Assembly (NCBI GenBank): GCA_030248295.1
Contig: JASANH010000135.1
Location: forward strand, 1-64,000
DNA from: Mesodorylaimus sp. YZB2_4
Lineage: Eukaryota; Nematoda; Enoplea; Dorylaimida; Dorylaimidae
DNA: 64,000 nucleotides
Reading direction: 5' to 3'
The notes beneath the pieces were generated by a model that saw only the letters and a list, made by a program, of their open reading frames with translations, was not told where the DNA came from and made no database searches. Position 1 is the stretch's first letter; each line of letters starts with the position of its first letter. Both the position numbers and the translations under genes were made by a program. Below are positions 5,108 through 55,109 of the stretch, piece by piece.

Positions 5108-7560
5108 TTAGCATAAATTCTGCCTCTTACCTTTCTTGCATTCCTCGATGTCAAATGCTTTTGGCATTGCTGACAAAGCTATAGGAATAAAATTTAGCGA
5201 GTCCTTGAATTTAATTCCGCCAACTTCCAAATACGTAATCCCTAATCCACGTGGAATTATCTGCCTTGGCTTCAGACCAACCCTGTAACAGTACTTCAGG
5301 ATGAATTGTCCATCGTAGCCCTTGGCATTATGAGCGATCGCAATTGCATTCTTGTTTTTCTTTGAAAAAAGCCATTCACAGAACTTGTCTAAGCAACCAT
5401 CTCCTGCGAAAATTTTGCGCTTAGCGCAAGACGAACAGCACTCCTGTAATGGCAAGTGGCAGCATTGCTCACAAACCTGAAATTTTAAATCAATTATGAA
5501 AATGTTTCTGCATAAACGAGATAAAAAAGATATGGCTACCTTGTGTGCGATGATCAGATTAGGGTGATGCAAGTTGATAGTTCCATTTTCATTTTCCCCT
5601 ACGGGTTCATCTTGACGGCACTCAAAATCGTAGAAAACAAAAGTGGTGTTATAGTTCTGTTGCGTAACCTTCTGTTTCTTTGCAGGTGGTGGCGCACAAT
5701 CTTCGTCATCATGGTCAGAAAATGTTTGAAACTCTTTCAAAGAGTCATTCTCTACCGTCATACCTTTCTTAATGTGTCGTTGAATGAAGCATTGGTGATC
5801 ACCATTAGCCACATCGAGCTTACAGGTAGAACAATGTCGGACACCGCACTGATGTCCTTTGCGAGTGTAATATTCCTTGCGGCAATTTTCACATCGTCGA
5901 ATTTGGTTGCAAATCGGTTGATTATTGGTGATTTTGCTTCTGACATTTGAGCCAGTTCGCAGATGATTTAAAAAGCACTGCTGATTATTAAAAAATCTGT
6001 GGCAACGATTGCACTTTGTAAGAGGTTGTTCGAGTTTGCACTTCCCAATACCAAAGCAGCAATGACAGCGAGCAGGACAGATTTGGTGATCAATGCGATT
6101 TTTGTAGGCTTTGTTAAACGACTCACAAAAATAACTCGCTTCAAAAAATGCCGCTGGAGATGTAATCACGTGAAAATGTCCATCGACTAATCATAAGTGC
6201 AGTATTTTGGGCGCTTCAGGACCCATATAAACCAAACCCTCGAACATGTCCTTATCAAAAATTTTTAGTTGATACTGATCGTGACCGAGAGCCATTTGCA
6301 AGGCCATCCATTCTTCGGGTCCACATCCTCCATGGTGATCGGACAGTCCTGCTGCAGTCATCAAAGTTTGCGCCCGAGTTTTCTGTAATGTGTATCGATT
6401 GCTGTCACCTTTGCGAACAGTTTCGTATCGATCTCCATCAATACGAGCTTTGGCCGTAACAATAGCTCTCGCGCAGCACAAATCGTCGTCATTCACGATT
6501 TGAACAATAGCTCTCTTTTTCTTTAGGTGTTTCTCAAGGTTTGTGCTGTACTTTCTTTCTATACGTCCGCTTTCACTTGGGCGTTTTATTCGAGTAAAAT
6601 ACACCGTCAATTTCTCATCAAAGGTCAGTTCTGTCTTGCTTTGTAGTACAGCGCAAATGGCGTCAACAATCAATTCTGCTGTCAGTTCACTTTGTCGACG
6701 AAGTGGCACGATGATGAGGATATCGAGGACTGGATGATGCAGGAAAAAACTAAGCAGATACCTTTCTTAATGTATCGTTGATTAAAACATTGGTGATCAC
6801 CAGTAGCCACATCGATCAGTGCCGTCTCTTTTGACCGTTTCAAAAACGTCAGTGAAAATCGCTAATAAGAATAATTCGATATCACTTACTTCCTCCATGT
6901 TTTTGAAAACTAAATCGTATTGTCCATAATCAGTAATGAATCTCTTGGTTGATTTCATGAACATGGGACGCAATGCATAATATTCGGAAGGGACAATTTC
7001 GATTGCATCGGCTCGGTCACGTTCTTCAACTGGTGAGTCTTGACGACCTGATGATGGAGAAGTATTGCCGTGACCCTCTTGCTGCACAACTTGACTTGGT
7101 CTACGATGGTCCTCTGAGAAGTTTTCACCGAGGATGCTATTCCAAAATTCGGTGGTGCCAAAATTAGTAGAGCGATGGCCGCGGGATAGCTGAAGATAAC
7201 GTTGGTAAAATTGATCCTGGAGAAGTGGTCGGCCACGCCAAATTTCGGGTTCGATGCATTCTTGCAATTGCTACAGGGTTATAGGAACAGAACTGCCAGG
7301 TTGATCATCAGCGCCGTCTGCCGTGAACCCATTCTGAACAGCATCCCAAAAGGCTAGTGTGCCAAAATTGGTTGAACGCCCAGCAGTCGAGAGCTCCAAA
7401 AAACGCAGAAAAATTTAATTGACTAAATCTTCACAGTCTTCCCAAACACCTGAATCAACAAGAAGTTGTAAGCTTTCCAAGGAATCACACTCCCTAGCTC
7501 CAAGGGATCACACCGGCTCCTCAATCTGCCGCTCAGTACAAAAGTTCGAGTTCGAGTAAG
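5108..7560 (-). pseudogene. Polinton/Maverick protein-primed DNA polymerase B, N-terminal half, broken
   Basis: From 6709 to 5108 one frame encodes the N-terminal and exonuclease part of a Polinton-type family B DNA polymerase. Visible are PLRRQSELT near the start, a CCARAIV block, the ITSPAAFF block, a Cys/His-rich zinc-binding stretch, the Exo I motif (FYDFEC) and the Exo II-like motif (AHNAKGYDGQF). A single in-frame TGA at 6191-6193 splits this frame. A 63-bp in-frame GT-AG intron fits 5477-5539 and restores the family spacing between HK and VCEQC. The frame ends at KKG beside a consensus donor (GTAAGA, near 5130), and no polymerase palm or fingers exon was found beyond it. Upstream exons are suggested at 6890-7267. 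There the peptide RSTNFGTTEFW and a second copy near 7340-7400 (RSTNFGTLAFWDAV) show a tandem module duplication. This is a dead, truncated mobile-element gene. Confidence 0.85.
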
Positions 7561-18174: not shown

Positions 18175-18180
18175 TTTATT
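18175..18180 (-). terminator. Candidate polyadenylation signal
   Basis: AATAAA on the minus strand, about 280 nt downstream of the stop codon of the degenerin gene. Plausible position only; hexamers occur by chance in AT-rich DNA. Confidence 0.3.
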
Positions 18181-18459: not shown

Positions 18460-21400
18460 TCAAGCCATCAATTTCCTGTGGATCATCCCAATGAGTGTCG
18501 TACCGGGAAATATGATTATTTCGATGAACGATATCGCGCAGAATCCGAGCCAAAGCCCAACATTAGCGAATAAATCGGAAACTAGTGACCAGAGCTAAGA
18601 GACCAAGGTTATTGCATTGCATGCACCACTTCTTCGTTAGGGGCCAGGGATGACTCACACCAGTGAGTCAAATTGATGGTGGGCGCTCACTTACTGGATA
18701 TGCTGAAAATTCTTGCAAACTTCGGCCAACCATGGTGTTGAAATAGATGTCCACTCTGCTATAGTTACCCCTGAAAGGAAGGATCAATGCATTATTAAAT
18801 GGTAGCAGGCATTTGTCTCACACAATGGTGTGCTGTGAGATCACCTGCCACGACAGCTTATTCGTCAAGATGCTCTATCGTACAGCGTCCATTCGGTGAC
18901 TCCGCGAGGAAAGAAGTTTTTTCAATTTCGATTCGAAAAAGCTATTAAGCCAGCGAAGAGCAAATTTTTGAAAAAACTTGTTTTTAAATGCATTTGTTCA
19001 TGAACACTTGCACTTTGCGATTCTAACTTTTCAAGAATACTGTACTGCTCGCTTTAAGCATAGCAGAAAACTTATTCAGCATGGTAACAATTAATACTAA
19101 TTAATTGTAGGAAAAACGCAGTTTGTAATTGTGGGCTAAGAAACTATGTAACATAGGAAATTTTCAAAGAGTTATTTGTCAGAAAATGGTGGGTCTCGAC
19201 TGTGAAAATGGGAAGTCGAAAATAAAAGATTTTTTTTTCACACGAATTCCAAGTGATGCGGAAAAATTACTTGAAAAATTGTAAGTGCGTATAGGCACCC
19301 TCAAACAACATCAATGACAGATCCGAGATTTCACACTTTTATCTCCAATGTCCCTGCTAAAAATTCAAATTAATTAAAAGTAACGACTCTGTGTGACAAC
19401 CCAAGCAGCGGTCGCCATCGCGGCGCCGCGTGAAGCACAATAGGTACAGTACCTACAGCCTGCTTACACCCACCTAAATGCCTTTTTGCATGCTTCCAAA
19501 TCTTGTCCTTCCATATGTCGGCAATTTGATGGCTAAAATTTCAAGATACCTCCAAGATACAATCAGCTTTCCAACGGGCAGATTTCTACTTACTATGAAA
19601 CGATCATTTGGCCAGAAGGCTTTAGTTTGTGAGTATGGATGGTATTGCATCCTGGAATTAAAATACATTGGGTTCGAATAGGCCCAAGAAAAACGGAAGT
19701 TTTCATACCTGCAGGCAGGTTTGCAGCCACAGCTCGCTACTGAAATGTAATCGGTTGATTTTTCAGCTATTTTGTCCACGCACGTTTCTGAAATAGTATT
19801 CGCTTACTAGCCTATACTCAGAGGCCCAGAGGTCCATGCATGGTGCTAGGGTCAGCTGGCATCTCGTGCAAAATCGACAGCAAGCATCGTGAAATAGACT
19901 CTATACTCTGGTCTACTTGTGGGGTTTTGTGACGTGCTTGGTCCTAAGCTGAGGGTGCACACTAGTGGAAGTGTGGGACTGGCCGCCCTGTACATGGAAC
20001 GTCTCGGCTATCGGCTGCCATCGCTGGTTGGTCGACGCGCTCTCTAGGCGTCGCGGAAGCCCGTCGAGCTGGTGTCTCATTCCCATACGACTAGGAGTCA
20101 TGCCTGGAGTGTTTCGGACCATCTGCGGTTTCTTCTGCAACGTACATTTGGCCATCCAGCCATCCAGCCTGTTGCATCATGCTAAGAAAGGATTCTGCTC
20201 CGGTCTTCTAATTCGGTTTTGCAAGGTGTCTGTGTTCCTACCTTATGTAATACGACTGGGTCCGCTTTACTGGAGGGAGTGACCGGTGGAGCTTTTGCAC
20301 CACGTCAAAAACTACACTCTACACTAAGCTCAGCCTCTACACTAAGCTGAGGGTGCTGAGGGTGCTGGAAGTGCTGAAAAAACACAGTTCGTAACATACT
20401 TTGAGTAATATTGCAATATGACGGACCAGGCGGTAAGGGATAACGGGGGTCACCGCATCCACAACGATCCAGCATCAATTTTTGATAGCATGTACCCAGA
20501 CAAGTCTAGGAAGTAGAAAATAAAAATAAAAAATTTAAAATCAGTAAAAAAGCAGAATTTACATCAACTGAATACGAGCTGTTTTTGTAAAAATTTCCAG
20601 TGAGATCTTCCATGCAAGTTGAATATGGGTCGCCTAGTTTGGTCAGTTTTGACTAAAAATGAAAAAAACTGCTGCCAATTATGGCTTTGCGAACGTTAAA
20701 TTGACCCTTACTTTTTGGATCCCAAAAATATAATGGATACCAGCCGAACCCTTTATCCCAAGAGATTGTATCATCGGCTCCTCACTGGGTTGGTGGAAGA
20801 CCAGAGCAAATCCAGCAGGCAAAGTGAAAGGCAGATAATCGTCTGATGGAGTGTTAAAAATGAGTCGTAAACCCAATGTTTGGCCAGCTCTACTGGCCAA
20901 GTGTGAGCCGGGCTTCCAGTTGAAAGTGAAACAGTTCCCATATGTGGGATCGGAAAATGTTTTGACTTCTCTGCAAGTGGAGAAGTCTCGGGTCAGAGCA
21001 GAGTACCAGCATTAAATCCCGGGTACATGGTGCTGTGCACTGGCTTTGGTCATCTTTGCCAAGAGCAATGGGAAAAAAACAGAAACAAATCGTACTTAAA
21101 ACTTTTCAAAACTGAACTGAAACTGAACAAGCTTAAACTTCAACGAAACTTTTTTGATACAGCCTTCCGACAAGGGCAACCACAAAAGCTTGTTGCTGTC
21201 CACCTGAACGTCATTTCCTGCATCTCACTCTTAGTCCTGAAAACTCGTACCAGTGTCCTGAAATATCCCCATGAGCATAAAGTTCAAGACCCCTACTCTC
21301 CAAGTTCACATTTTTTGCCAGCGTATCGACACCAAAATATGAATTCGTTCAACTGATAGCTTATCTCCGATGCCAGCATTCCATCGGGATCATTGGCTTT

Positions 21401-24400
21401 TATCAAGTAGGCAAGAGCATCTTGCATTTGGCCTGACCATGCCAAAAGATCGTTATTTACTGATGGCTGAAAAGCATATAAGATAAGAAACCTTTGAAAG
21501 CTCCTAAATATTGTAGGTCTCACTGTAGGTATCGAATCAGTTAGGTTTTCTGCTGTAGTGGATCCACGGGTCTCTTTAGGCTGGGCAGCTGAGTGGAATT
21601 CCTGGTTTGGTGCTCTGGCTGTTTTTGTGTTTTCAGAGCTCGTAGTGAATACAGGTCTTTTAGAAACATCGTCTAATCTAGGTTGTGACTGGGCGCTTAT
21701 TTCTGGTAATGGGGCCTCACGATTATTTGTTTGCGGATTGCTAGGCTTCAAATTATTTTCATCAGGGGCAGCTGTGTTTGTATCGCCAGGGCTATCTGAG
21801 GTAAGTGGGGAGACCAAATCAGAGTTTCCTGGCCCTTTTGGATTTGCTTCCTGGACTCCAGGACCAGCTGCAGGTCCTTCTGCCGATTGCTCGTAGGTCG
21901 GAAGTCGATTAGCCGAATCTGTTTTTATTTTTTCAAAAGTGGCTTCAACTTGTTCAGGTGTTTTGTCATCATCAGGGGATACACCCAGCTTGGGGCCTAA
22001 GTCAGGACTTGGACCGTTTCTTGTGCCTGGTGGGCTGTCAGAGGAGTCGGGACCAACATTCTTGCTCCTTGGAGGCTGAATTGGACGTTGGGTCAGTGGG
22101 GACAGTGGCGCGCCTTGGTCGGATTTAGAAACAACTGAAGCCACTTTGCCAGGGCGAAAGTTGAGGTCAGATAAGTCTGACATATTGCCAGGAGGAGGTG
22201 GAGGTTGGGTTAGGTTATCTGTGATGGGCGGGCTGGAAGAACCTAGGCGTAGTGAATTGGGGGACTCGGGCAGCGAGCTTGCGGATTGGGCACTGGTGGT
22301 AATTTCAAAAAGGTGGTTAGATGCTTTGACTGCAGGTGACTGAGCGAAATTAGATCCAACTCCTTGCGAGAGGACTTGTGCGCTAGGAACTTGGAGAAGA
22401 TCTGCACCAAAGGGCTGAGGTCGATCTGCGATGGTAACCTGAGGAATGGAATCTGTGATTGAAGAAGCAGTAGCTTCGAGGTCCTGACGTCCAGGAGTTT
22501 TTAAGCCGCTCAATTTGGAAAGATAAACAAATTCGGTCGCCGATGGACTTTGTGCAACCCCTCTCATCGGGGCTTGCTGACCAAATGGAGGCAAAAACGG
22601 AAGCTGCTGGACGGAAAAATTTGGTGGAGCTTCAGTAACATCTGTAACCTCGCTGTTAGCCTGAAACGCTGGTTTTTCTGACAAGAACAGCAAAAAGTCC
22701 TGGAGGTGGTGTCTGTTTTACGACTAGCTGGAGGTAGTTCTGTGCCTGGGAAAGTCACTGATACAGATGTTTCGGACAGAGGTCTTTGAGCAAAAGCGAT
22801 TTGATCTAAAGACGAAGTTTTTGGAAATGTGGTGGGTGCGGCCTCCCAGGCTTTGGAGAGATCTGGAGCTGAGTCCTCAGTCACTGACATCTTACCTAGA
22901 GCCCCAGATAGGCTGGGCAACTCAAGGTTGGATGGCATACTGATTTTATGCTGCTCAATTTGCACAAGTTGTTGAACTGGTGCTAATAAATTTAATATCT
23001 TCCATTGTTCAGGATCTAGTTTACCGCTCATAAGTGGCTGAGACGTACTAGTCGGGTCGGTGCTGCTGCCGCCTACTGGGGAGATAATGGGAATCACTGG
23101 TTTCAGCTGCTTGCTAGGCATAATGAGTCCTCTCGATGACTGCGGACTCCATGTGGGTTGGGAACTGATGATTACAGGAAGAGGTGCGATTTCATTTGTA
23201 CCTATAGGTGCCTCATACACTGAGACTGATAAACGTGACGAAACTTCTTGACTTGGCTGAACACTCATGGAAGGCGAGAGCTGCGAAACGGTGGCTAGCA
23301 GTTGCAATACGGCTTGCTGTGCAAACGAAGTACTCGCAATTGTATTTGTAACCTGACCCGAAGGGAAGATTGGTGGTGGATATAACGTTAGACTTTTCGA
23401 GGGCGACCCAGTCACAGTCAAAGTCATGTCAGTGAGCGGGGCAATTGGTGGTGGAGATTGTGGGACATTTGTTTGTGATGAAAGTATTGGGTGCACTTGT
23501 GTATCCTTCCCTAATGCTCCTGTTGTGGTTGTGATGTCTTGGCTGTCCCTAGTCTCTGGCACTAGTGCGAAAGCAGCTGGTTCCGTATCGTCTTCACTCG
23601 ATTCTGATGCGCTCAGTCTATCAGAATAAGGCTGGCCAGGGCCTTGTGTCGCATATATTGTACCTGCATATGGGTCTTTTTTTGCAAGCTGCCCTGGTGT
23701 TGCATGACGCCACGCGCCGATAGCATTTTTGGAGGGAGTAGTCACTGTATCAGAATGTTCTGTGCTTAATAAATGGCTCTCATATAGTGGCTCAAGGGTC
23801 TGAGTATCTTTTTGCAACGTTTTTACTGTGGTGTCAACATCCCAGCCAGTCGTTGGATCTGTGGCCTTTATGGAAAGGATGGAGGTTTTTAAGTACAAAC
23901 TGTCAGAAGGTTGAAAAGACAACTTTTCTATCGCTGCTCGACTGGAAGTGCTTGTCGCAATTCCATCAACTACTTGGAGGTTTTGAATGCTTCCCGGGGT
24001 TGCTCTACGTCTAGTTGAGCCGTGTTTTGCAGTTGACGTGGTGGTCGTGATTGGTAACAGTGGACTAGGTGGAGGGGGTGTTTCTGTATTGGCTGTAACT
24101 GAGGTTGATACACCGCTAAGACCATCAGCAGCCTCGGAAAGAGCAGATTGAGTGCTAACTGTGGTTTCAGGAACATGTTCCAGAGATGTTGCAGCAACAG
24201 AAGAAGGAAAATTATCCATCAGTACTCGCATGTTGGTTGTGATGACACTTCCGTCAACAACTTGCAACTTCTGAATGGTGCCTGGCGTTGCTCTGCGCCA
24301 ATCACCGAGTTTTGCTCGAGTTGAGATTTCATAGGTTGATGCAGGTCCAATTGGAAACCGAGTGGTCAGGGTAAAGTATGGTGGCTGAGATGAACTTTTA

Positions 24401-27400
24401 GGGAAGGCAGTGTTTATGGTGCTTGTAAACTGAGCCGCTTTTGAAGTTGTGGACGGAATTGACGGTGTGCGACTATTGATCGATGCTATTGATCTTGTCA
24501 GTAATGAGCTCGAAACAGAAGCAACTGAAGGCCTGGAGGGATCTGAAGAAGGTGCTAGTGTCTGTGAGGTGGAAGTCTTCTCTGTAGTGCTTCCCGCAAG
24601 GCCTGTGACAGTGCTGGAAGTGCTGTCTCTTGAAACAGTTGTAACGGAAGGAGCCAGAAACTGTGAGGTTATTGAAGCTGATATCTGTTTTGAATAAGTC
24701 GCCAGGGTTGACACAGGCGTGCTGGAAGCTGGGTTCTTGTGCCTTGTTGAAGTTATGATGTCTGCCCCTGCTGTGCTGACTTGGCTGGTAACGCTTTCAC
24801 CAGTTCTTGTTTTTGGAGAAGTCATCTCGACGCTGCTGTGTGAAGCATCTGACAATGAGGTACTGGAGCTGATGGAGCTGGTGGTAGAAGTTGTGCCAGT
24901 GGATGTAGACCAAATCGTTAAGGAATTAGTGCTTGATACTGTTGGAGTTTTAGTCGAGGTACTTAAACTTGTTTGAACGAGGGAAGCTGGAGGAGGAAAT
25001 GTTGATACTGCTGTAGCGGACTGACTTGTGATTGTGGTTGAGCTGCTTTTGGTTGAAGTCATCGTTCTAGAAATGCTGAACGCTGAAGTCAGTTGCAACG
25101 ACAGTGTCGATGTGGTGATAGCATCAGAGCTTATAACGCTGGTCGCAGTGCCTGTCGATTGACTTCTGCTAGATTGATTCATGGTGCTGCTTACTCCCGT
25201 GCTTGTCCCTGCTGAAGTAAGGCCAACTATCGCTGTTAATGTTGCTGTGCTTGCATTTAGAGTTTGGGTGATGGATAGGTCTGTGTGAATGGATGTCTGG
25301 TCTGTGGCTACTGATTGGCTAGTGGGAACAGTTGTGACGGCAGGTGTACTTGTAGTCATAACGGACGATGGCGTCATCGATGATACTGGACTAGAAGAGA
25401 CTGCAGTTGATTCATCTGTAATCGAGCTAGTACTGGTTGACTCTGATGGTTGCACGGTGGATGTTACTGCAGGTGCCGTCGATGTTGTCGTGACTGCGGT
25501 CCAGTTAGCTGTCCCAGAAAACGATTCTGTCGAGTATGATGTAGCCTGAGTTGACACAACGGTAGGCGTTGCCATGGTGGGTGTCATAGCGCTTGGGGCT
25601 GCTGTTGTGGGAGCACTGCTAGCAGAGTTACCTGTAACTGAGCTTTTAATGGTTGACTCTGATGATAATATGGTGGTGATATTTGATACAGCTGTGGATG
25701 CCATCGATGTTGTCGCGACCGTGGTCCAATGCCCAGAAAAGAATTGTGTTGAGTATGAAATGGCCTGAGTTGAAAAACTGCTGGTTGCTATAGACGTCGT
25801 CGTACTGGGCGAATTGCTTGTCATGATGGAAGTCACAGCGGTAGGAGCTGATGTGGTTGTTGCAGAAACAGTGCTAGCGGGCTCAAAAGTGCCGGTGTCA
25901 GTGGCAGTGGTTTCTGCAGTTAAGGTTACAACTGAACTGCTAGCAGACAAGGCTGTAGCATTGATGGTATTGATAGTGGACTCAAGGGCAGGTGGCACTG
26001 TTGAAGAAACCGTTTCAGTTCTTGATGCCCAAACCGAAGTTCCATCAGAGCTTGACGGGAGAAACGTCTGTGATAATGTACCTGGTGCTAAGATTGTGCT
26101 AGCAGGTATACTTGTCCAAGTGGATTCGGCGGCCGTACTTGTGCTTTCGAGGGAAGATGTAGCGTGCGAAGAAACTTGGGTTGTTGTCGCAACTGTACTG
26201 ATAGGCGCGGTCGTCGTCTGAGAGGATTCGGCTACGGTTGTGCTTTTGCTTGTGGGGGCAGATGTCTCAGCCGTGCTGGTGGCCACAGGTGTCATTAGGG
26301 TAGACGTGCTTGCGCTTGTAACGAGGACATCAGTCGTCGCAGAGGAAGTGGATACTGACGCGGTTGTGGGGACTGTGGTCATCTCAGTCGATGTCGAAGA
26401 CGCGGTAGTAATTGTGGTTGAAGGTAGGGTAGTGGTCATTGCGGACGTCGTAGTCGTGGTCGACGTAGTTGTGGTGTAGTAAGCTGAAATGCAAGGTTAC
26501 TGTGGCCTCATGCAGACTTGTATGGTGTTTCCCCTACCGACAAAAATATCTTGTTGCACTTCTACAGTCACATTTGAGCATGCTCGGGTGATTGACCATG
26601 TTCGATAAACATATGTTTGGTTAACCGCTTGATCATTGTAGGTCCAGTTCCAAGCGATTTCTTGTCCAGAAGCGCATGCCTTGGTTTCCACTCTGGGCAC
26701 TCCCGTAAGACTCGCATCGGTCAAGTCGGAGGTGCTGTTCAAGTGGGCAGTCGGGGGTGCAGCGTATGTGTCTAATGGCAGGGTCAATGTGATAAGCTGT
26801 GTTAAATTATCTGCGATATTCCCACAGCCATCGATCAGCTTCCACAATCGGCTCACCACAGAGGAGCAGCCATTGCTGGATAAACTGACACTAACGTCAG
26901 AGTAGGCCAGCTTGTGAGGGACGCATCTTGGATCGACATAAGCTTCTGCCAAATCGGGTTCTGAGTTATTGACTGGAGCTGGCGCGACCGATAAGTCGCA
27001 GGATATCAAGTTGGAGTCTAGGACAGATATGACTGGTATGAGGGCTGCCAAATCTTCGTCAGTTCTTCCATCGCCATCATCGTCTTTGAAGTTGCGCAAC
27101 TCTTCATCTACCCACCCATCGCAGTCGTTGTCAATGCCGTCAGGTGGGTTCGTATCATCCGTCTGCGTGCAAAAGTAGGAGCCTTTGCCTAAACGTAATC
27201 CAGCCATGTAGGCGTACGAGATGTCTTGGCCGAACCCATACGCCGCAACGCTGAATAAAACGCTAACGTCTGAGTGCTCTATCTTGAAATCTTCCGCCAC
27301 ACTTCCACATTTTAACTTGTATTGGTAAGCGCTCAAAGTGGTGTTTGGGATTTTGTTGGGAGGCGTTAAGCCGAGAAATGACTGATTGTTGAGAAGAAGT

Positions 27401-30400
27401 CCGCCTGATTTGGTTTCTTCGATCACAATTGTCAGATGATGGCTGTAAAAGAGTGGATTGCACGACACGATGAAGAAAGTATTTGTGAATCCGTCCGTAG
27501 GTGGAACCATCAGTAGCGCTGGGTCGCTATCTGAAAATATATCTGCTGTAAGTCGGTATCAGCGATGAAGAACTGACTGATGGTCTTTGTCAAGCGGCCC
27601 CCCGGGTCAGGTATCTGTAGAGAAAAGCCAGCCCAGCCGTACGTTCAATTATACTTGCCACTATTGTTTTACTGCTTGCAGCAATGCAGCAATTTATCTA
27701 TCGATATGCTATTGCAAGTGGGAAGAATACAGTGCGTACAGTACTGCAGTGAATCGAGAAAAGTCGACTCCAACTGCATATTCTGATGCTTCAAGCATAA
27801 CCCATAGTCCTTTTCGGACTCACATGTAATAGGCGCGAATATCTTATTTGCACCTACAGTACATATTCATACTGATATGTATATATCTATAAATATTTAT
27901 ATATTTATTTATAATATATACTTGCTTAAATACATAGGTACATATATTTATTCAAAAATATATATGCTGTAAATATATTTATTTATTTATGTGTACAACA
28001 GATGCAGATAAAGCCGCGCCTATTGCACATATATTCTGCACACCAGTCACATTCCCTTACATGTTCCCTGGTACCCGGAGCCTTGCATGTACTGCGCCAC
28101 TTGCAACGGGCCATTGGCGATCAAGTAGGAATACTCTGATTGCAACGTGAACACGTTTCTCCATTCTCTGGCCTTCAGTGTGAACGTTTCACTCGAGACA
28201 GTTCCAATGCGAGTCACATTTAGATTAGTATAGGCGACGACCTTGAAGATTTCATAGCAAGCTGCGCAAAACGTGACATTGAAGCAGCAGGTTGGTTGCC
28301 GCGTACACGAGTGGCTGAATGGCGTCAGTGCAAAGCGCATGCCCCAAGTGAAAGTTGGTGTGAGCTGAAAAGCAAAGTACGTATACTGTGTGCCGTTGAC
28401 TGACGCTTGTTTCTGAAGGTTAGTTTGCCAAATTTGGCGAAGCAGCCATTCCAGTACGCGTCGGACAACCAAGGGCTGGTCCCCTATTAGGGGTTTAAAG
28501 TTTGTACTGAGGTGCAACACAATAACGATTGTTCTTCATTTACTGTATTTCTTGCCTGCACGCAGCCAACAAAACAGCTTCCCAACCGCTCCCATTCGCT
28601 GCGCATCTTCACAGTTGCATCGGCGGCGCCTATGTTTTTATGTGGTGTGACCTCCTTCTAGCATATTCGTGCACAGCCACTTCTCTTACAGTCAGTGAGG
28701 CCTCCGCCTCATACTATCAGTACCTATGTTACCGTAGGTTTCCTCACAGAGAAGAGCACGCTGGTTACCCATGTGAACTTCAAATTAGCTGTGACCTGTG
28801 ACTCGAAAATAGGCTTATTCAGCTGATGCGAAACGCGAGTTAGTGCTGTTTGATCTATTTGCAATTGCAGCACTATAAGTGGTCTTGTGGTTGTCCTTGA
28901 CTTACCTGCTCGACCATATGGTCACAGCAACAACAAGGTTTGGGATAATTAGCGCATGCAGCACTGGTAATCACAGCCACTGGCTTTGTGGCTGTGATCT
29001 TGGCGCCGGACATGTGCGGCTTGTTGGACAAGAAGATGACATCCATTTCGTCGGCGTCGTAATTTTCGACCAGACCCGACGGATACACGACAGTAATAGA
29101 TGTGTTTGGTGTCGTGGCAACGATGTGGATATTGTTACCAGTGTCTTCGATTCCAGCCACGATATATTCGGTGCCAAGAACATCGGTTGGCAGGACTAAG
29201 AATCCATCGGATGTAGCTGGATAATAATTCATGCTGTAGACAACGAATTCGTAGTCAGCTATTAGCTTGATTCCTATGGATGGGCTCGAGGTAACATTCA
29301 CCACGCGCACTTGCTTATTGTCGATGGGTTGAATTCTGGTAAAACTGTTATCTCGGGTCGTGATGGTCACATCGAACGTCTTACCAACTGTCGTTGCTAG
29401 CATCAATTGAAAAGTATGAGTGGCGAAATTCGGTGGAAAGGTCGCATAGAAAAGGGTTCCAACATGGTCGGGTGTATCTGCTTAAAAATAGATATTAGGT
29501 TTGTGCAATTGTCTAGCGAGGCGCATAGAAATATTATAGAGATCTCGTGAAAATTGTTCTTGCAAAAGGTGCCTAACGTCATCACCCAGCAGGCCAGTAC
29601 TAGGGTATACAATAAAACATGGAAGACACCCCATTGATTCAACATGACGGTGCGAAGGCAAAAAGTTTTGAAAAAAGTTGGTTTCTGACCGGGACCAAGG
29701 AGAAGAATTTCTTGAATGATGGGCGTGGTGCCATAATCGACCCGTGCTTCTTACGTAATAGGCGCCCCAGCGTACTCTTTTAGCATTGAGCATCTAACGG
29801 GCACTTAGATCAGCAGAAATTTCAAAATATAAGCCGCCTTTATTGCCGTGAATCTTCACATCCCCCCCCCCCCCCCACTCATACCCCTGTTATGTTTAGC
29901 TGTAATAACGTATATTTTCGAGGTAGGTATGCAGCACATAATGTTCAGCTGAAAGACACATGGATTTAAAAAACTCGAATTGCGCGTCTTGCATACTGCA
30001 TGTTTTCATCAAACATCACGGAGGAGTAAAAACAAAAAATTTTCTTCACCTGTCTTTTATGTACTGTAAGACGTCTTTTGTATCTAGTTTGAGACAAAGT
30101 ACAGACTAGAATCGATGTCGGAATATTTTTTAAAAAATGATATTCTGATTCAGTACCCACGTTTAATGGGGTAGCCAAAATTCTGGACCTTCAGCACCTA
30201 TCTAAAAAGAGTCGAAATTCTTTATTGCAATAAAGGACCGTTGGAAAATAAAAATTTCGTCTTCTTGAATAATGAAGGCACGGGTCCAGAATTCTGGCCG
30301 CCAGAATACGTGGGTGATAAATCTCAATATCATACCCTTTTTTCAGTATTCCGACGTCGATTCCAGAGTGTCTTCGTCTGTATATCTGCTAGTCTAATGC

Positions 30401-31635
30401 TGGTGGTATATCATACTCATACTCATAGTTTACTCGTGCCTAAACGCGAATCGCCTAATGAAAATTTCACTTAAGAAATTGAGTCTCGGGCGACAGAACA
30501 TCAATGTCAACAGGAATAGGCTGACAAGATGTAAAACAAGTTTAAGTGCAATGTCTTTGTGGCGGTAATGAGATCTGTTTTGTAAGCACTTACTCTGTAA
30601 GAAGAGAAGATTCCGACGTCGTCTCACCATTGATCCATCTTTCAAGGTCTTCTTGTCATTGTCTTCTTTGTCATTGTGGAGGGGAACGATCAGATTTTCA
30701 GATTCTTTTGCTACATTTGTTTGACGTTTCTGGCGAGCGTTGTCCTCGGCAATAATGCTTGCGCTGTATTCTTGCAACTAAAACATAAGATTTTGACATC
30801 TAGAAACAGCTCATGTTCATCATGTTCATGTTTTACCACATCACCAAACGCGTATGCGCACTCGAGGGTGAAGGGACACATTTTACACGAAATGATTTAC
30901 CGGCCCGCGAGTCGAACACTCGCCCGTAACTGCGCACCTGGCGTGAGAGGCAGACGCCTAACCCACCAGGCAACGAGGCCGGTGGGTTAGCTCACAATCA
31001 GTTCGGTGCTGGTTACCAAGCCAAAAGTACAAGATCGTTAAAATTATGTAGCCAAGATACAATTTTCAAGATTCAATTCTTGGCTAATATGCAAGGTATT
31101 GGCCAAGATACAATTTTTTTGCTCCTGTCCTCACCTAACTGTGAAAATTCCTACCCTGACGGGCAATAGAACATTAAAATTAAAAGTAGTTTTCTGCCGA
31201 TCACAACGTTGATTTTCTGGTTTTATCAAAAAATGATAAAGAGGATCAAGCAATACCGCGACTATAAAGCACAAAAGCACTACATACCGCACGATAAACT
31301 CCTGGTGCTTTCTGCTTCAAGGCGGAGACCTTGTATGGATTCAGATTGCAGGCAGAAACCGAAGGGAACTCCAACGGTCCACTTTCGAGCTATATGAAAG
31401 ATAATTTTACACAAGACGGCGAAGTCTGATGACACTCAGAGCTAACCTTAGTCCAAGTTCCGATCGGATATTGGAAAAAGAAAATCACCGACTGTGCAAC
31501 AAACCCCATAAACACGGCGAGGCATGCCAGAAGTGTGACTGCCCACGCAACCTTTGCGGATGTCTTGACTGCGTAAGCTGGCGAGAAAATTGTCCTGAGC
31601 GAACTGTGAGAGAACTCCGCTTTCAGGTCTTCCAT
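18460..31635 (-). CDS. DEG/ENaC channel with IgGFc-binding and mucin-like ectodomain, 2781 aa
   Basis: Sixteen exons join with matching phases: 31635-31447, 30777-30594, 29684-29586, 29477-28906, 28364-28061, 27530-26538, 26483-22722, 22677-21297, 20970-20712, 20652-20563, 20505-20400, 19787-19709, 19651-19594, 19532-19474, 18770-18695 and 18594-18460. The sum is 8346 nt, ending in TGA. An in-frame TGA precedes the ATG. Domains: short cytosolic N-terminus; TM1 about 30-54; IgGFc-binding type beta domain about 155-560 (GTLFYATFPPNF, DPALLMVPP, QDISYAYMAGLRL); Asp-rich patch 575-610; mucin-like Ser/Thr region about 780-1700; Pro-rich part to about 2440; then DEG/ENaC ectodomain 2450-2740. Channel signatures include NEFIFWCRYAGKKC, YGNCFTFN, AGFALVFHQP, DPYSTC, CYQKLMLDRCGCGDPRYP, CGCKPAC and a late W-P. 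TM2 is 2748-2775 (NVGLWLGFCAISFIE). Likely a plasma-membrane cation-channel subunit with a giant extracellular tether. Weak points: the link from TM1 to the IgGFc part through exons 2-3, and the choice of the 30594 donor over one at about 30630. Confidence 0.85.
20200..20399. other. Intronic short direct repeats
   Basis: Within an intron of the degenerin gene, CTAAGCTGAGGGTGCTG-like words repeat several times (20320-20375) and recur at about 19945. Local slippage-type repetition; no coding sense. Confidence 0.4.
22722..26483 (-). other. Mucin-like exon of the degenerin gene (1254 codons)
   Basis: One 3762-bp exon encodes a Ser/Thr-dominated chain with almost no charged residues in its first ~700 residues and no cysteine that I can see, a typical substrate for dense O-glycosylation. 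Acidic and basic residues increase later. It is bounded by a 54-bp intron (26484-26537, donor GTAGGGG) and a 44-bp intron (22678-22721, donor GTAAAAC). Both keep phase with the IgGFc exon before and the Pro-rich/channel exon after, so the mucin lies inside the channel protein. The long Val-rich frames on the plus strand here are antisense artefacts of the ACX/TCX codons. Confidence 0.85.
23673..24303 (-). repeat. Repeated peptide motif in the mucin exon
   Basis: The exon encodes WRRATPGTIQKLQVVDG (24251-24303), RRRATPGSIQNLQVVDG (23962-24013) and a shorter WRHATPGQLAKKD (about 23673-23715). Spacing is about 290 bp. These are more conserved than the surrounding Ser/Thr-rich text, so they are functional motifs or remnants of a longer internal repeat. 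Confidence 0.75.
26538..29477 (-). other. IgGFc-binding-type domain exons of the degenerin gene
   Basis: Three exons (29477-28906, 28364-28061, 27530-26538) encode a fold known from the N-termini of Fc-gamma-binding protein and related secreted invertebrate proteins. Landmarks are Phe-Tyr-Ala-Thr-Phe at the start, EYIVAG, a Cys-Cys-Cys-Cys knot (PKPCCCCDHMVEQ), TFTWGMRF, EYSYLIANGPLQVAQY and the DPALLMVPP block. Glycosylation sequons (NVT, NTS, NTT) are frequent. The last exon continues with DNDCDGWVDEE and DDDGDGRTDED, resembling Asp-rich Ca-binding loops, and then a Cys-containing region ending in QDIFVG before the mucin exon. Confidence 0.8.
27870..27995. repeat. AT-rich low-complexity tract in intron
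   Basis: Irregular (TATATAT/TTATT)n sequence within the intron between 28061 and 27530. No unit is perfectly conserved. Confidence 0.7.
30100..30390. repeat. MITE family C, complete palindromic copy
   Basis: Left half (AATCGATGTCGGAATA, then GTACCCACG, then CAAAATTCTGGACC) and right half are inverted copies over roughly 90 bp each, separated by about 90 bp. It lies in an intron of the degenerin gene. Other copies are at 46085-46398 and, as a half, 1985-2160. No coding capacity. Confidence 0.8.
30855..30983 (-). repeat. SINE family A, copy 1 (tRNA-like head)
   Basis: On the minus strand 30983-30899 folds with a perfect 7-bp acceptor (ACCGGCC/GGCCGGT), a GCCT/AGGC D-stem and a B-box GTGTTCGACTC. 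The anticodon region reads CTCTCAC like tRNA-Glu but pairs poorly. The body (AAATCATTTCGTGTAAAATG, then CTCGAG) follows. It lies in the intron between the first two degenerin exons. Confidence 0.75.
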
Positions 31636-40279: not shown

Positions 40280-41435
40280 TAGCCAAGTTACGAACAGTAT
40301 ATGTTCGGTACAGTGGCGAAAGCTCTGTAAAAAATCGTTTCCACCTTTTTTTTACCAATGTTTCTGAAAATTGCAGCGGTTACAGTAATCTGCTATTCTG
40401 CGCATCACAGGCAAAAGCGCGTGAAGTGCGTCCGATTTTTTCCAATAATTCGATTTTTGCATTCTTCTTCTTTTGCGTTCAAAACGGGGATCACGGCAAA
40501 CGGAGTGTGCCAGCCTTCATCCTCCATGGAGACTACACAACACAGCATACTCACTTTCTTCAAGTTTTTCCCCCGTACTGCTGTATCTTCGAAGTGTTGA
40601 TTTTTCCGCCGAATTTGACCCTAGAGCCATTGAGAGGGCTTGTTTCGCCCTTATCAATGTCCTCCTGCTTCGCTTCGCCATTCGTCAACAATCTATAATA
40701 ACACAGTGAAAGCCTACTGTTTGTCTGTGACTTCCTTTTAACACAAGAAAACAATTTTTAACCGATTCTCTCAAAATTTCCAATTACAAATACTCGAGAA
40801 CAGCATACTAGTTGTAGAGAATTTCGAGCTCTACATGGACACCGCTTAACCGTTTTCTACTCTGCTAATTGTTTCAATTCGCCACTCGGAAATTATGGCC
40901 AAGGTTTCCATGGCCAACGTGCAACAAAACTGCAAAAAATAATCTACCTGAAAATATTGGAAAATTCAAGCCAGCCTGATGCAAGTGTCATGGCCGCATT
41001 TGGCTGGATCTCTTGAGCCTGCCCCACACCTTTCATGCCTGCTTTGTCTGTCTGATCCGGTTTCTGTGCCATGAACTGACCCGTATATAACAGGCAGGTG
41101 TGTCTGTCTAAGGGCAGTTCCTCGAAGTAAAGAGGTGAAGAAGAGACGTGCGAAAAATACCTAAGTGACGGGCTTGGCTAGTCAAGCATTGTTTTTCACG
41201 TCTGCCACGTTGCGTCGTTGCCACGTCGATTACTTTTCCTGCCTCGTCGATTGCTGATCGGTCCGCCTCGTCCGGTTTACTCATCGTTCGCCGACCAAAG
41301 TCGACAGCGTCCTCGTTCAGTCCTTCACTGTTCGGTTCACTGTGAAGCTGAAGGATCAAGGTTTACTGTGAAGGAGTGTTCACTGTCCGCAGTGTTCGTT
41401 CCCAGGAGCTGACCGCATTCTCGACACTTGGTCAG
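40280..41435. other. No gene; possible upstream part of gypsy relic
   Basis: No gag or protease motif is visible upstream of the reverse-transcriptase fragment at 41436. A GTATATAACAGGCAGG stretch near 41080-41100 is TATA-like, but no LTR pair was found. Confidence 0.35.
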
Positions 41436-43065
41436 CCATGGCAGTTCACTGTTATGCCATTTTGGTTTTCGTAATGCAAGCGCCACAGCGCAAAGACTCT
41501 TGCAAATGGTTTTGTCAGGATTGCATTGGACTCAAGCTTTAGTGTACATTGACGACACACCTATTTTCTACATTGACGACATACAAGTCATCATCTGCTG
41601 CGTTCGATGATCATCTGCTTCACATTGGAAATGTCTTGAGCCGCTTGACATGACATTTTGTCGGTTTGAGCTTGAGCTGCTCAAGCTCAAACCGACAAAA
41701 TGTCATGTCGCGTTGAAGCAAGTCTCTTTTCTGGGACATATTGTCTCCAACGAGGGTGTTAGAGCCGACCCGACAAAGCTCGAGGCGGCCGCGAGGTACG
41801 CAGTACCAAAAAACGCAAAAAGAACTTTGCGCGTTCATAGGCATGGTCACATTTCTGCATGAGTATGTACATCAGTTCGCGACCATCGCTGCTCCGTTGT
41901 ATGACTTGTTGAAGGAAAATCCTTACGTGTGGAAAAGTGCCAACGAAGACGCATTTTTGCAATCGAAATATTCCTTGATACAAGCTTCAGTCTTAATCTA
42001 TCCCGACTTCTCCAAACAATTTGTTTTACAAACCGACGCCTCGGACGTAGGTATAGGCGCAGTGTTGTATCAGGAAGTCGGTGGAAGAAAACGCATCATC
42101 GCGTATGCATCGCGTAAACTGACGAAAGCAAAGCAAAATTACTCCGCACTCGAAAAGGAAGGGTTAGCCATAGTATGCTTCGTGCAACACTTTTGTCCTT
42201 ATTTGTATGGTGTCAGATTTCTGCTACGAACTGATCACCAAACACTCAAGTGGATCTTCCAGCAGAAAGAACCCACTGGTAGGTTAGCACGCTGGGTGTA
42301 CATTCTGTCCGAGTATTCTTTCGAAATCGAGCATGTTCCTGGAAAACTGAACACAGTAGCTGATGCGTTATCACGCAACCCAGTTTGTCCTGTGTGTTCT
42401 GCACAATCAGCATGTGCTGCAATAGAGAAATCCACAGCGAAACCATCTGATTTTTAACTTATGTCGCTGAAGACAGCGAGGACTCCAAATGGGCATCTCT
42501 CATCACGTTCCTCGAGACTAAGGCATTATCCGCTGATGCTAGGGACGCGCGTCGACTAAAAATGATGTCTGAGCATATGTACTACTGTCTGAGGACGGTG
42601 TGCTGATGCAGGATATCCTTTGGGAGAGCCAAGCGACATGCAGATTCCATGCAGCTCGTCGTGCCAGAAAGTCTCACCCGTTCTGTGTTTGATGCATGTC
42701 ATACTGATTCCATGGCTGGCCATCTTGGATTTGCTAGAACATTCTTACGCGTCCGTAAACGTTACTATTGGCCAGGAATGCACAACATGATTTTCGGTTT
42801 GTGCAAAAGTTGTCTCGCATGTTCGCGAAATAAATCCTATGGATCACTTCTGAAGGCACCACTGAAGCCAATTTGTGTAGAAAATCCGTGCTAGGTCGTT
42901 GGTATCGACACCATGGGTCCCTTGCCCACATCTGAGGCTGGCAACAAGCATATCGTCATCATTAGCGATTATCTGGCAAAGTATATTGAGGTTTTTTGCA
43001 GTACCAGATATCACTGCCAGTACCATTGCTAGTCTGCTTGTTGAGTATTATTTGCCGGTGAGGAG
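41436..43065 (+). pseudogene. Ty3/gypsy retrotransposon pol relic
   Basis: In order, the plus strand holds a reverse-transcriptase piece (FGFRNASATAQRLL ... LVYIDD), then LGHIVSNEGVRADPTK. An RNase H domain follows (41741-42457: LQTDASDVGIGAVLYQE, ALEKEGLAIV, RTDHQTLKW, ADALSRNP). Last is the integrase zinc region (GHLGFARTF ... CLACSR) with the first catalytic stretch (IDTMGPLPTSEAGNKHIVI). The YIDD box is locally duplicated, a perfect snap-back palindrome interrupts 41647-41709, and there are several frameshifts and stops. Homology stops near 43065, where a different integrase begins. No LTRs were found. Dead. Confidence 0.9.
41647..41709. repeat. Perfect 30-bp inverted repeat in the gypsy relic
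   Basis: Arms 41647-41676 and 41680-41709 match exactly around the three-base loop CTG. The right arm is the native coding text (LKLKPTKCHV); the left arm is its inverted copy. This fits a template-switch (snap-back) event during replication or reverse transcription. Confidence 0.95.
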
Positions 43066-48377: not shown

Positions 48378-51300
48378 TTACATGCCTAACGGGTGCTGGT
48401 GCAATAAGCCTTGATGCTTGCACGCCTCAAGGGCTAATTGCGTCATGGCTTCGAAATCTTTCTTGTCTTTTGACGATTTCAAGACGGCTAAATTAGCTTT
48501 CACTCGATCCGCAGCCTGTAAAAAGAAATTGAAGCAGGTAAATACCGGCGAATGAACATACAGTACATACATCAACACATTGAAAAACAAAGCCCCGGAT
48601 GGGATTCGAACTCTCGCCCCTAGATTGCTGTCTGATGTCAAGTACTAGCTACTGCACCAGAATGAACTCCACACCGCCTTCAAGACCTGTTCTTATGAGG
48701 ATTGAATAAAGAGAGGTAACTCCATGAATTTTTCAAAGTTTCCATGTCTTTGTCATCCCGCCAAGGATATCTCTTCCATACACGGCGATTTTAACCCGAG
48801 AACCACAAATTTTGCTCACCTGGCTACATAAGACGCGAACAATCAATTTCTCGTGTTCAGCTGACGGAGCGCCTTGAGCGATCGATCGACTGGCTCGGGC
48901 CAACACAGTCACCATTGAGTAAATGTCGATAGTCGCGTTGGCCAATCGACTCAACAAATATTGTTCGTCAATAATACCTTTGCCATATTTGATCAACAAA
49001 GCCTCCACGCTAGATCCAAACAATTCTACCGATTCGCTGGCCTAAAAATCATTTATTCTTAAAATTTCAAAAAAAAAACTATACTTAAAATTATCTTACC
49101 AATTTAGCAGAATCGCTTAAACTCGAGTGCACATTCTTGCCGAGGTCTACATTTCCAGTTCGCAGTCCTGCAATCCTAAAAAAACATGAGCGATGAAAAA
49201 CCAAAAAAGTGAAAACTCGTTTTTGCAATTTATGTAAATGCTCACCGTTGCAAACGCTTGCTAGCTTCGCTAAAAATGACAGCAACATTCGCAGATTTCA
49301 TTTGTTCGAGCGTTTCTTTCAGATGACTTCCAGCGTACTGAAACAGAATTTCTCATATCATCATGTATTCGCAAGGTCTGCATGCTTAGGATAAGATAAT
49401 AAGCACAGATGCTAATTTCCTCATTTTCAAATCCAACTTTCTGGCGAACAAAGTGTGTTTCTAGCTGGTTTTCTACAAAAGACAAGCTCAATAATTAAAA
49501 ACTCCACTATCTACGAAATGGCGAGTGAACAAAAATTTTTATGAGAATTATGAGGGGTAGGAGGGGACATTTTCACCAGATGCAGAAAGTAGGCGTTTTC
49601 CTACGCATTCCTCGGAGCACTCTACCAAAATCCCTGTTGGACCAGGCTGGCCTGGCACAACGAAATCCCAAACGCCGTGTCCCACTGAACCCGCCAATGA
49701 CATAAGAGCGTAGAGCTTGGGTACAAACCTGGGCTGTCTTGCACCAAACATAATATCATACCTGAATTCCACTTAGTGCAACAAATAAACGTAAAATATC
49801 ATTCGTGCCTTCAAAAATACGGAAAATACGTAAATCGCGCATAACTCGTTCCAATCCAGTCTCCTACAAGAAATTAAATTATTCTGGGTCTTGGCTGAGA
49901 ATCATAAATAATTTTTTACTTTCATGTATCCCATGCCTCCTAAAACTTGGATGGCTTCATCGCAAACGTACCAAGCCGATTCCTGCAAAAAAAACTAAGT
50001 CTTTATCATCATGATCAGTTTCCGAATGTTTCATCAAGCCGTGGGTCCACTTCGTGCAAAAACTAATAGTAAGTGCCAGCAAGCAAGAGAACTCGAAGAA
50101 TACCCAAAAAAGTGAGCTTGTCGACCTTGGATCAGGTTTTTTGAGAAAGCTCGCAAGAAAAAACGACCAGTGCCAGGCCAGAAGCCAAAATACACATACC
50201 GATCCGTAAACTTTGCCAATAGCTGCTTCCAATTGATAATCCTTCGATCCCTTATCCATCACGCCGCTAATCATGTAAGCCATTGACTAAAAACCAAAAA
50301 TTTCTCTCATTTTTCGCAGAGTAAGCCACGAAAAGAGCTTACCTCAGTCACATATTGTCTCAAAATCATACTGGCTAATTTTTCTTGAATTGATCCAAAA
50401 TCTTGAATCTTACGACCGAATTGTGTGCGAGTTGATGCGTGTTCAAGCTGAAAAGGCACCAGAAAATCAGTGATAAACTAATAAAAATCTGTTTTACCCC
50501 GACCCAAAGAAACCAGTCAGAAAAAAAATAAATTAGTGGCGATAAAACAAGGATATCAGGGTTCATCACATAAGAAACGGAAAATGATTTTCTTCGACAT
50601 TTGCAACTTTTTCAGACAAATTTGATTCTTTTTGATCATTTTCAAATTATCCTAATGTAGACCAAACCTATTTCACCTGGTTTCCAGCAAGATCATCGAA
50701 TACGCAGGAAACGCGGGAGATTTAAAATTTGAAGCCTTTAGGAGATTGCGCGGGAGATTTGACTGTAGTCTGTCACACAAAGTTGATGATTTTACCCCAA
50801 AAATTCCCATTTTCCCAGGTTTTTGAGGCACTTTCGGGATTCCCAGACTTTTTAGGTTTTCCAGCCTCGCATGAACCCTAACTATTGCAAAAACTCACAG
50901 CTTTCTGTATGCAAGCCCTTTGCGTTCCAGCCAAAGCTGCAGCCATACCGAATCGACCACTATTCAAGATTTCCATGGCAATTTTGAATCCTTCGCCTTC
51001 CTCTTAAAGACAAAGTTTAGTCACGAAAGTTTCCAAAATTCACTAAGCTTACTTCCTAGCAAATTTTCTTTTGGTATTTTGACGTTATCAAAATGTACTT
51101 CGGCCGTATTCGATGCCTTGATGCCCATTTTCTTTTCGGGTGGACCGCTAGTTATTCCGCCAAAACTACGTTCCACGATGAAAGCGGACACTTTTTCTTT
51201 GACAACTCCATCGGGACCTTTGACTGGAGTCTGCAAAATAGAATTGCATCTGAATCTAAAACTGAAGCAATGAATTTTTTGCATACCTGCGCAAAAACAG

Positions 51301-54360: not shown

Positions 54361-55109
54361 AGAGAAACGAAATTCAGCGAAGACGATCGCAGGTTCATCG
54401 AATGGTTGTCCAAAAAATCCAGCAATAGTGCTCGGCATGCATTCGATCATCGATAAAAATCAATCGGCCGTTGCCATTCTACGCCATGCACCCACAAACC
54501 ATGGCATTACCACCACCGAATTTGACTGTCCCACGGGTGCAGCTACCGTGTACGCTTCACCTGCCTTCCACCACTCTTTGATTGGACCATCTGATGACAC
54601 AAGATTGAATTTCGACTCGTCTGACAACAAGATCTTTCTCCAATACTCTAAGGACTTGTTCCTGTTTTCCAGGGCAAACGTAGACGGCCTTTCATGTGCC
54701 GGTCGGAAAGGAATGGTTTTTTGCGGTCAGTGTGTGATCGGAATTCAGCCTCATGCAGACGTCGACAAATAGTTTTTGGCGAAATCGTGATGTTCTTGGA
54801 TTGTTGGAGTTGGCTGGCCGCTTGGACGGCCGATCTCCGCCGATTCGCCTTGACTTTGTTGACTATTTTGTGATCGATTCTGGATGCCGTCTTGCGTTTT
54901 TGCCCACAACCAGGCAAATCTTCAACTGTCTTGGAGATTTTCGACTTTTTGATGATTGAGAAGATATTAGAGCCTTTGAGGTCAGTAGCCTCGGCGAGTT
55001 GTCCATAGTAGATTGACCTCGATTCTTGAGATCGAACATTAATGACCATTCTCCAATACTCAGATAAGATTCTCGAGTCGCCACTTCGATGGTAGAAAGA
55101 AGGAGACAT
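54361..55109 (-). pseudogene. Tc1/mariner transposase relic
   Basis: The first 150 codons (55109-54648) are open and read as the bipartite HTH region of Tc1-like transposases (FSIIKKSKISKTVEDLPGCG, then ISPKTICRRLHEAEFRS and RKKPFLSDRH). Below 54650, frames alternate: LLSDESKFN (second catalytic Asp region of DD34E), a GT.KFGGG..MV.GC block, NGNGRLIFID and MHAEHYC. At least two frameshifts are needed. No TIRs were identified. Confidence 0.8.

Follow-up and report, generated by a model that had tools for sequence, protein, structure and literature searches.

The minus strand of a 64,000-nucleotide stretch of nematode DNA from Mesodorylaimus sp. YZB2_4 (assembly GCA_030248295.1, contig JASANH010000135.1, positions 1 to 64,000 of the forward strand; hereafter the window) can be read, from position 31635 to 18460, as a single series of exons with consistent phases that encodes one DEG/ENaC channel subunit of about 2,764 residues. 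In the ectodomain of this predicted protein, which spans about 2,680 residues, an insert of about 2,260 residues would sit in the finger part, composed of a putative IgGFc_binding head with MopE- and HYR-like parts and then a mucin-type stalk of about 1,640 residues that rejoins the channel core. The order of these parts, their common frame and their recurrence in a gene family are supported by the sequence. Of the readings considered, the one favoured here, if tentatively, is that this single DEG/ENaC-family gene encodes a channel that is cut by furin and is tethered or gated through its arm. Beyond what a first-pass annotation of the same DNA had described, the present analysis adds paired furin-type sites, altered pore and His-Gly motifs, a MopE/HYR-like part and a gene family.

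Recurrence of the arrangement in the genome

The genome (145 Mb, 1,067 contigs) was searched with family profiles. The N-terminal family of cuticle collagens was matched 133 times and the Srx chemoreceptor family 146 times; both are nematode-specific, and the genome looks like that of a nematode. The IgGFc_binding profile gave 42 matches, grouped into 20 loci. Twelve of these are preceded by an exon of the first transmembrane segment (TM1) type and followed by a channel core, all on one strand; an even scatter of 100 channel places would by chance give a core in this position at about 0.1 loci. The core is the locus's own in 11 cases; the nearest core of the IgGFc locus at C233:64223 belongs to a neighbour, and at one further locus, on contig C11, the core is present and the TM1 exon was not found. 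The first-pass annotation gave the order as TM1, IgGFc-binding part, Ser/Thr-rich part, Pro-rich part, Cys-rich core and second transmembrane segment (TM2); of these, TM1, IgGFc-binding part and core recur in the same order on one strand at these 12 loci, and as far as genomic sequence can speak to it, we regard this recurrence as the decisive evidence for a single fusion gene. The corresponding search with the ASC profile, in which 93 of 1,086 candidates were scored and the window's own exons were not among the matches, returned at least 114 exon-level matches; a match was also obtained in one bacterial control (Thermotoga maritima).

On the minus strand of contig C233, between about 3900 and 94250, there is a tandem array of six IgGFc loci with about six channel cores, in which one IgGFc locus has no core of its own and one core has no IgGFc match. 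The C11 locus (L018, 1819-3672) carries at least four MopE-type repeats, with DNDCDG present four times, after its IgGFc block, and its core lies 12.6 kb downstream. The top-scoring channel outside the IgGFc-linked contigs, with 33% identity (L006/L050, contig C30), has, ahead of its core, a stretch rich in Ser/Thr and Gly that contains RPRR and perhaps represents an earlier stage of the insertion. Inserts lying within one open frame were also considered for several other channel genes, and these were rejected when the DNA showed shorter, separate frames.

Three relatives (C114, C79 and C1) were modelled in full, with predicted products of 2,746, 2,954 and 2,809 residues, the same order of parts as in the window copy and identical intron phases at all 15 comparable junctions among the four. 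In these models the search regions were narrowed by homology and GC donors were allowed (C1 seems to use one), the relatives' E3 was first found by a search imposing the phase of the window copy, some splice scores are poor (C114 E12, -4.0), and the start of E8b in C114 is uncertain, with about 13 extra residues compared with the other copies. Identity to the window copy is 0.60-0.62 in the IgGFc block, 0.58-0.63 in the core and 0.21-0.29 in the stalk, and the ratio of nonsynonymous to synonymous differences (pN/pS) is 0.23-0.35 in the IgGFc block and 0.22-0.32 in the core, with synonymous sites near saturation. The closest pair is C114 and C79 both in the IgGFc block (0.76) and in the core (0.72); the TM1 part (E1-E3) does not single this pair out (0.56, with C79 at 0.59 to the window copy). 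Since the closest pair is the same and pN/pS is similar, the IgGFc block and the core look as if they have had a common history under similar constraint. The stalk has retained its length (1,584-1,812 residues) and composition and hardly its sequence, the pairs being 19-30% identical.

Exon structure, domains and motifs of the window gene

The first-pass annotation had joined 16 exons with consistent phases into 2781 codons. When this model was rebuilt from the DNA, the phases were indeed consistent and all 15 introns were GT-AG, and the product came to 2,783 residues plus a stop; with a likely 57-nucleotide in-frame intron taken out, the corrected model has 17 exons and 2,764 residues. All features below lie on the minus strand. 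E1 (31447-31635) holds the start codon, the cytosolic N-terminus and TM1 (about 31551-31495), and E2 (31288-31389) encodes the first ectodomain strand with the motif FPSVSACNLNPYK; E2 is sub-threshold for ASC alone and is part of the joined match described below. E3 (30594-30777) is a linker that ends in phase 1. The channel core starts in E8b (21297-21466; QMQDALAYLIK...NEFIFWCRYAGKKC) and continues through E9 (20712-20970; YGNCFTFN, ASC 2.5e-12), E10 (20563-20652), E11 (20400-20505; Cys-rich thumb, ASC 3.6e-5, slightly below cut-off), E12 (19709-19787; Cys-rich thumb, CGCKPAC), E13 (19594-19651) and E14 (19474-19532), where a Cys pair is common to all four copies. The palm ahead of TM2 is encoded by E15 (18695-18770), and E16 (18460-18594) carries TM2 (about 18561-18505) and the stop codon. 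The AATAAA at 18175-18180 is the sole AATAAA or ATTAAA on the minus strand from the stop codon to 17500; others on this strand lie in introns, plus three in predicted coding exons (25650, 22996 and 21929).

When the TM1 part and channel part were joined with the insert left out (E1, E2, the first nine residues of E3 and the channel part from inside E8, including 18 residues now read as intron), the ASC profile (PF00858) was matched over positions 20-455 of 455 with E = 1.6e-62. Single-exon ASC matches are weak or sub-threshold, E9 excepted, and because the profile is filled only when both pieces are joined, the TM1 exons and the downstream core are taken as one channel. Among solved structures in the PDB, the channel part is nearest to ENaC gamma (2.1e-39) and beta (1.5e-38), with ASICs and FMRFamide-gated channels behind. 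Hydropathy gives membrane segments at residues 29-47 and 2732-2750 only, with one large ectodomain between them; this topology, one membrane-like segment at each end, is barely above threshold in C79. In alignments to ENaC beta and gamma and to the three relatives, the finger and thumb Cys pattern of DEG/ENaC channels was found by eye, and relative C1 lacks one thumb Cys. By profile and topology the predicted product is a DEG/ENaC member, in which two of the usual motifs, GxS and His-Gly, are absent.

The insert begins with E4 (28906-29480; IgGFc_binding profile 1-118, 3.7e-19) and E5 (28061-28364; profile 113-202, 1.1e-8), followed by E6 (26538-27530), which includes the end of the IgGFc_binding match, a MopE-like acidic motif (27153-27103) and a HYR_4C-like part (26730-26605), each sub-threshold alone. 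Taken as one block, E4-E6 matches IgGFc_binding (PF17517) over positions 1-279 of 297 with E = 2.2e-43 and 149 bits, against a cut-off of 25.6, so that both family assignments of the first-pass annotation, ASC and IgGFc_binding, were borne out by profile search. The name of the domain, which derives from the vertebrate protein, is no evidence of IgG binding. MopE (18.7 bits) and HYR_4C (19.5 bits) both stay below their curated cut-off of 27; in four relatives MopE is likewise sub-threshold, and HYR_4C is not listed there at E 0.01. A structure prediction of E6 alone (mean predicted local distance difference test score 30.9) is meaningless.

E7 (22722-26483; 3,762 nucleotides) has the 1254 codons that the first-pass annotation had counted for the Ser/Thr exon, with 40% serine plus threonine and no Cys, and the Pro/Ser-rich E8a (21524-22677) continues it. 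The whole stalk comprises 1,638 residues with 36% serine plus threonine, 9% proline and no Cys, a mucin-type composition. Within it, at 24300-23620, are three ATPG-containing motifs (residues 1512, 1607 and 1708), two of them as RRATPG/RRRATPG with LQVVDG; the same pattern search in the three relatives did not find the motif. Both the E4-E6 block and E7 are bounded by phase 1 at each end, which makes in-frame skipping possible and is the form that would be expected of exon shuffling.

Two furin-type sites (R-X-K/R-R) lie in E3 of the window copy, RQKR (30735-30724) and RRRR (30624-30613). In each of the four copies there are exactly two such sites, which lie together in E3 directly ahead of the IgGFc block (RQKR/RRRR, RKKR/RRRR, RKKR/RHRR and RQKR/RRRR), a number reached or exceeded in 0.6-2.0% of shuffled ectodomains. 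Exactly two furin-type sites, with no IgGFc block, were also found in 4 of 23 other N-terminal channel exons examined in the genome; these belong to L045 (C64), L046 (C64, two exons) and L054 (C102). A double-cut finger may therefore extend beyond the IgGFc-linked family and be common in this nematode.

The pore motif reads GFC (18546-18538 in E16), GCC, GIC and GCC in the four copies, with GxC in place of GxS. By comparison, a motif search over 28 channel loci picked up the filter in 9. Two of these duplicate places already counted, and at all of the 7 distinct places left, none of them among the four copies, the filter is GxS. The His-Gly position reads HS (31608-31603 in E1), QS, HS and CS, so that HG is absent from all four copies, and by eye HG precedes TM1 in several other channels of the genome (for example L001, L006, L041, L047, L052 and L053). 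In ASIC1 the two motifs contact each other and both affect gating and selectivity, according to excerpts of PMC10424705. That HG and GxS are changed together suggests altered or lost conduction.

Elsewhere in the window are a type B DNA polymerase fragment (5108-6190), which we take to be Polinton-like, a retrotransposon RNase H fragment (41717-42457) and a Tc3-type transposase helix-turn-helix (54648-55109). Scans of the window with Rfam (at gathering scores) and for tRNAs gave no match, nor did a search for spliced leader 1, where the control was likewise without a match.

Proposed mechanism and competing explanations

Under the favoured reading, a furin-type protease would cut one or both of the E3 sites ahead of the head, which would then become a free N-terminal end, held solely through the C-terminal end of the stalk at the finger domain. 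The channel fold would keep the TM1 piece in place, probably with the aid of the conserved Cys pair that flanks the insertion and would staple the ends of the insert together; we take this pair to be equivalent to C94-C183 of ASIC1. The head may bind an extracellular polymer, whether cuticle, mucus or a microbe surface, and a pull or binding event passed along the stalk could anchor the channel or alter its opening. If extended and glycosylated, head and stalk would be hundreds of nanometres long. A fuller version of this idea is somewhat less likely: nematode DEG/ENaC subunits would have radiated with an IgGFc head, freed by furin, that passes binding or pull to the finger through a mucin stalk several hundred nanometres long, HG and GxS having been jointly rebuilt to xS and GxC for that use.

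Several observations weigh against the favoured reading. Seven of the 20 IgGFc loci have no nearby channel piece, and one channel copy on C233 (TM1 at 49499, core at 40693) has no IgGFc match between its two parts. With both HG and GxS altered in all four copies, normal conduction appears doubtful. In the window copy the 44-nucleotide intron between E7 and E8a is weak and unshared, and if it were left unspliced the frame would stop at 22564, before the core, with an AATAAA following at 21929. The ligand of the head, its cleavage and the O-glycosylation of the stalk are inferred.

The alternative that survives best accepts the same single gene and gives its channel part another role, mainly as a trimeric anchor for a mucin-type coat or for a pathogen-facing head, with little or no ion conduction. 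Because the pore motif and the His-Gly motif are both altered, this is a serious possibility, nearly as likely as the favoured reading. It would fit the alteration, in all four copies, of two motifs that touch in ASIC1, one of them kept as GxS at every other place found, and it would also fit an expanded family with a tandem array on C233. A core and TM2 that are 58-72% identical among copies, with the low pN/pS given above, exceed what an anchor would appear to need.

An unlikely explanation is that, within a real fusion family, the window copy has decayed or is spliced alternatively, giving a truncated product that ends at 22564. It draws on the 44-nucleotide intron (22678-22721), which has the weakest donor of the model (2.5, against 5.5-10.9 for the other 14) and is absent from the three relatives, where a single frame stays open through the corresponding stretch. 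An alternative donor of equal phase at 22896 outscores this donor, and the stretch that its use would remove looks coding. Against decay, the coding signal in the window shifts from the frame of E7 to that of E8 between about 22700 and 22670, so that the switch of frame coincides with the predicted intron, and both sides of it stay constrained relative to the relatives. The 44-nucleotide intron may be a new intron of the window copy.

A second short intron bears on how the stalk meets the core. The first-pass annotation had placed its strongest join inside one exon (22677-21297), running from the Pro/Ser-rich part straight into the channel. That exon most likely contains a 57-nucleotide intron at 21523-21467 (ACA|GTGAGA ... 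TATATGCTTTTCAG|CCAT), in frame and stop-free, with a donor score of 5.2. An intron is found at this place in all three modelled relatives (44, 68 and 94 nucleotides, none a multiple of three), and for this reason the Pro/Ser-to-channel join is not taken to lie within one exon. As proof of fusion, the in-exon join was dropped in favour of the intron.

Very unlikely is an arrangement of two genes, in which an IgGFc-mucin gene stands on its own within a large E3-E8 intron of the channel gene. With phase 1 at the ends of E3, E6 and E7, E3 could join E7 or E8a and skip the insert, the E7/E8a donor is weak, and AATAAA and ATTAAA occur at 21929 and 22996, but no convincing signal-peptide first exon with a good donor of the right phase lies upstream of E4, the arrangement recurs in 12 of 20 loci, and the gap between stalk and core is just 44-94 nucleotides in the three modelled relatives. 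A gene of its own beginning near 29.65 kb was rejected, since the frame there offers no donor of suitable phase downstream of its hydrophobic stretch. None of 15 other phase-compatible start-to-donor pairs in the E3-E4 intron combines a good donor with a strong hydrophobic stretch; the best has a donor of 5.6 with a peak hydropathy of 1.19, and hydropathy of 1.89-1.94 occurs only with donors of -0.8 to -0.5.

Comparison with known systems

A full-length query against a set of 5.8 billion proteins gave five matches, all with IgGFc_binding and none with ASC, in a set suspected to be poor in animal proteins and uninformative on other nematodes. Among the literature matches listed, judged by titles and abstract starts, no fusion of DEG/ENaC with IgGFc or mucin parts was found, which does not establish its absence from print. 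Of known mucus and membrane proteins, FCGBP-type IgGFc-binding proteins share the IgGFc_binding domain; FCGBP is a secreted mucus protein, whereas the domain is built into a channel in the present case. Transmembrane mucins likewise carry a long, Ser/Thr/Pro-rich, Cys-poor stalk on a membrane protein, but the window insert, whose mucin character is predicted from composition, has channel sequence at either end.

The nearest known nematode case is that of C. elegans EGAS-1 to -4, which are also DEG/ENaC proteins with extra extracellular domains. These domains are EGF in EGAS, in contrast to IgGFc and mucin here; no EGF family is among the Pfam matches to the scanned pieces, and the EGAS architecture was not found. 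Excerpts of PMC10424705 state that EGAS subunits gave no significant currents in oocytes.

The ENaC alpha and gamma subunits have the same DEG/ENaC fold and, like the window protein, a pair of furin-type sites in the finger, beyond the first ectodomain strand. RQKR lies 35-38 residues past the conserved Cys, a distance similar to that of the furin site in gamma ENaC. In ENaC a short tract is excised, whereas here about 2,260 residues follow the second site, and GxS and HG are altered in the window family, unlike in ENaC. According to a passage of PMC8791634, one and the same subunit must be cut twice for activation, and the GRIP domain is found in ENaC only. The paired furin-type sites of this nematode may represent an independent case of a double-cut finger so far tied to vertebrate ENaC.

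The action of extracellular tethers on DEG/ENaC channels during touch is a long-standing question. In C. elegans touch the matrix links to these channels are separate proteins (MEC-1, MEC-5 and MEC-9), whereas here a candidate tether lies within the channel chain itself. With a defined attachment point at the finger domain, the length of the tether and its head could be changed in one gene, and if the fuller version of the idea is true, this would be a channel with its own built-in extracellular tether.

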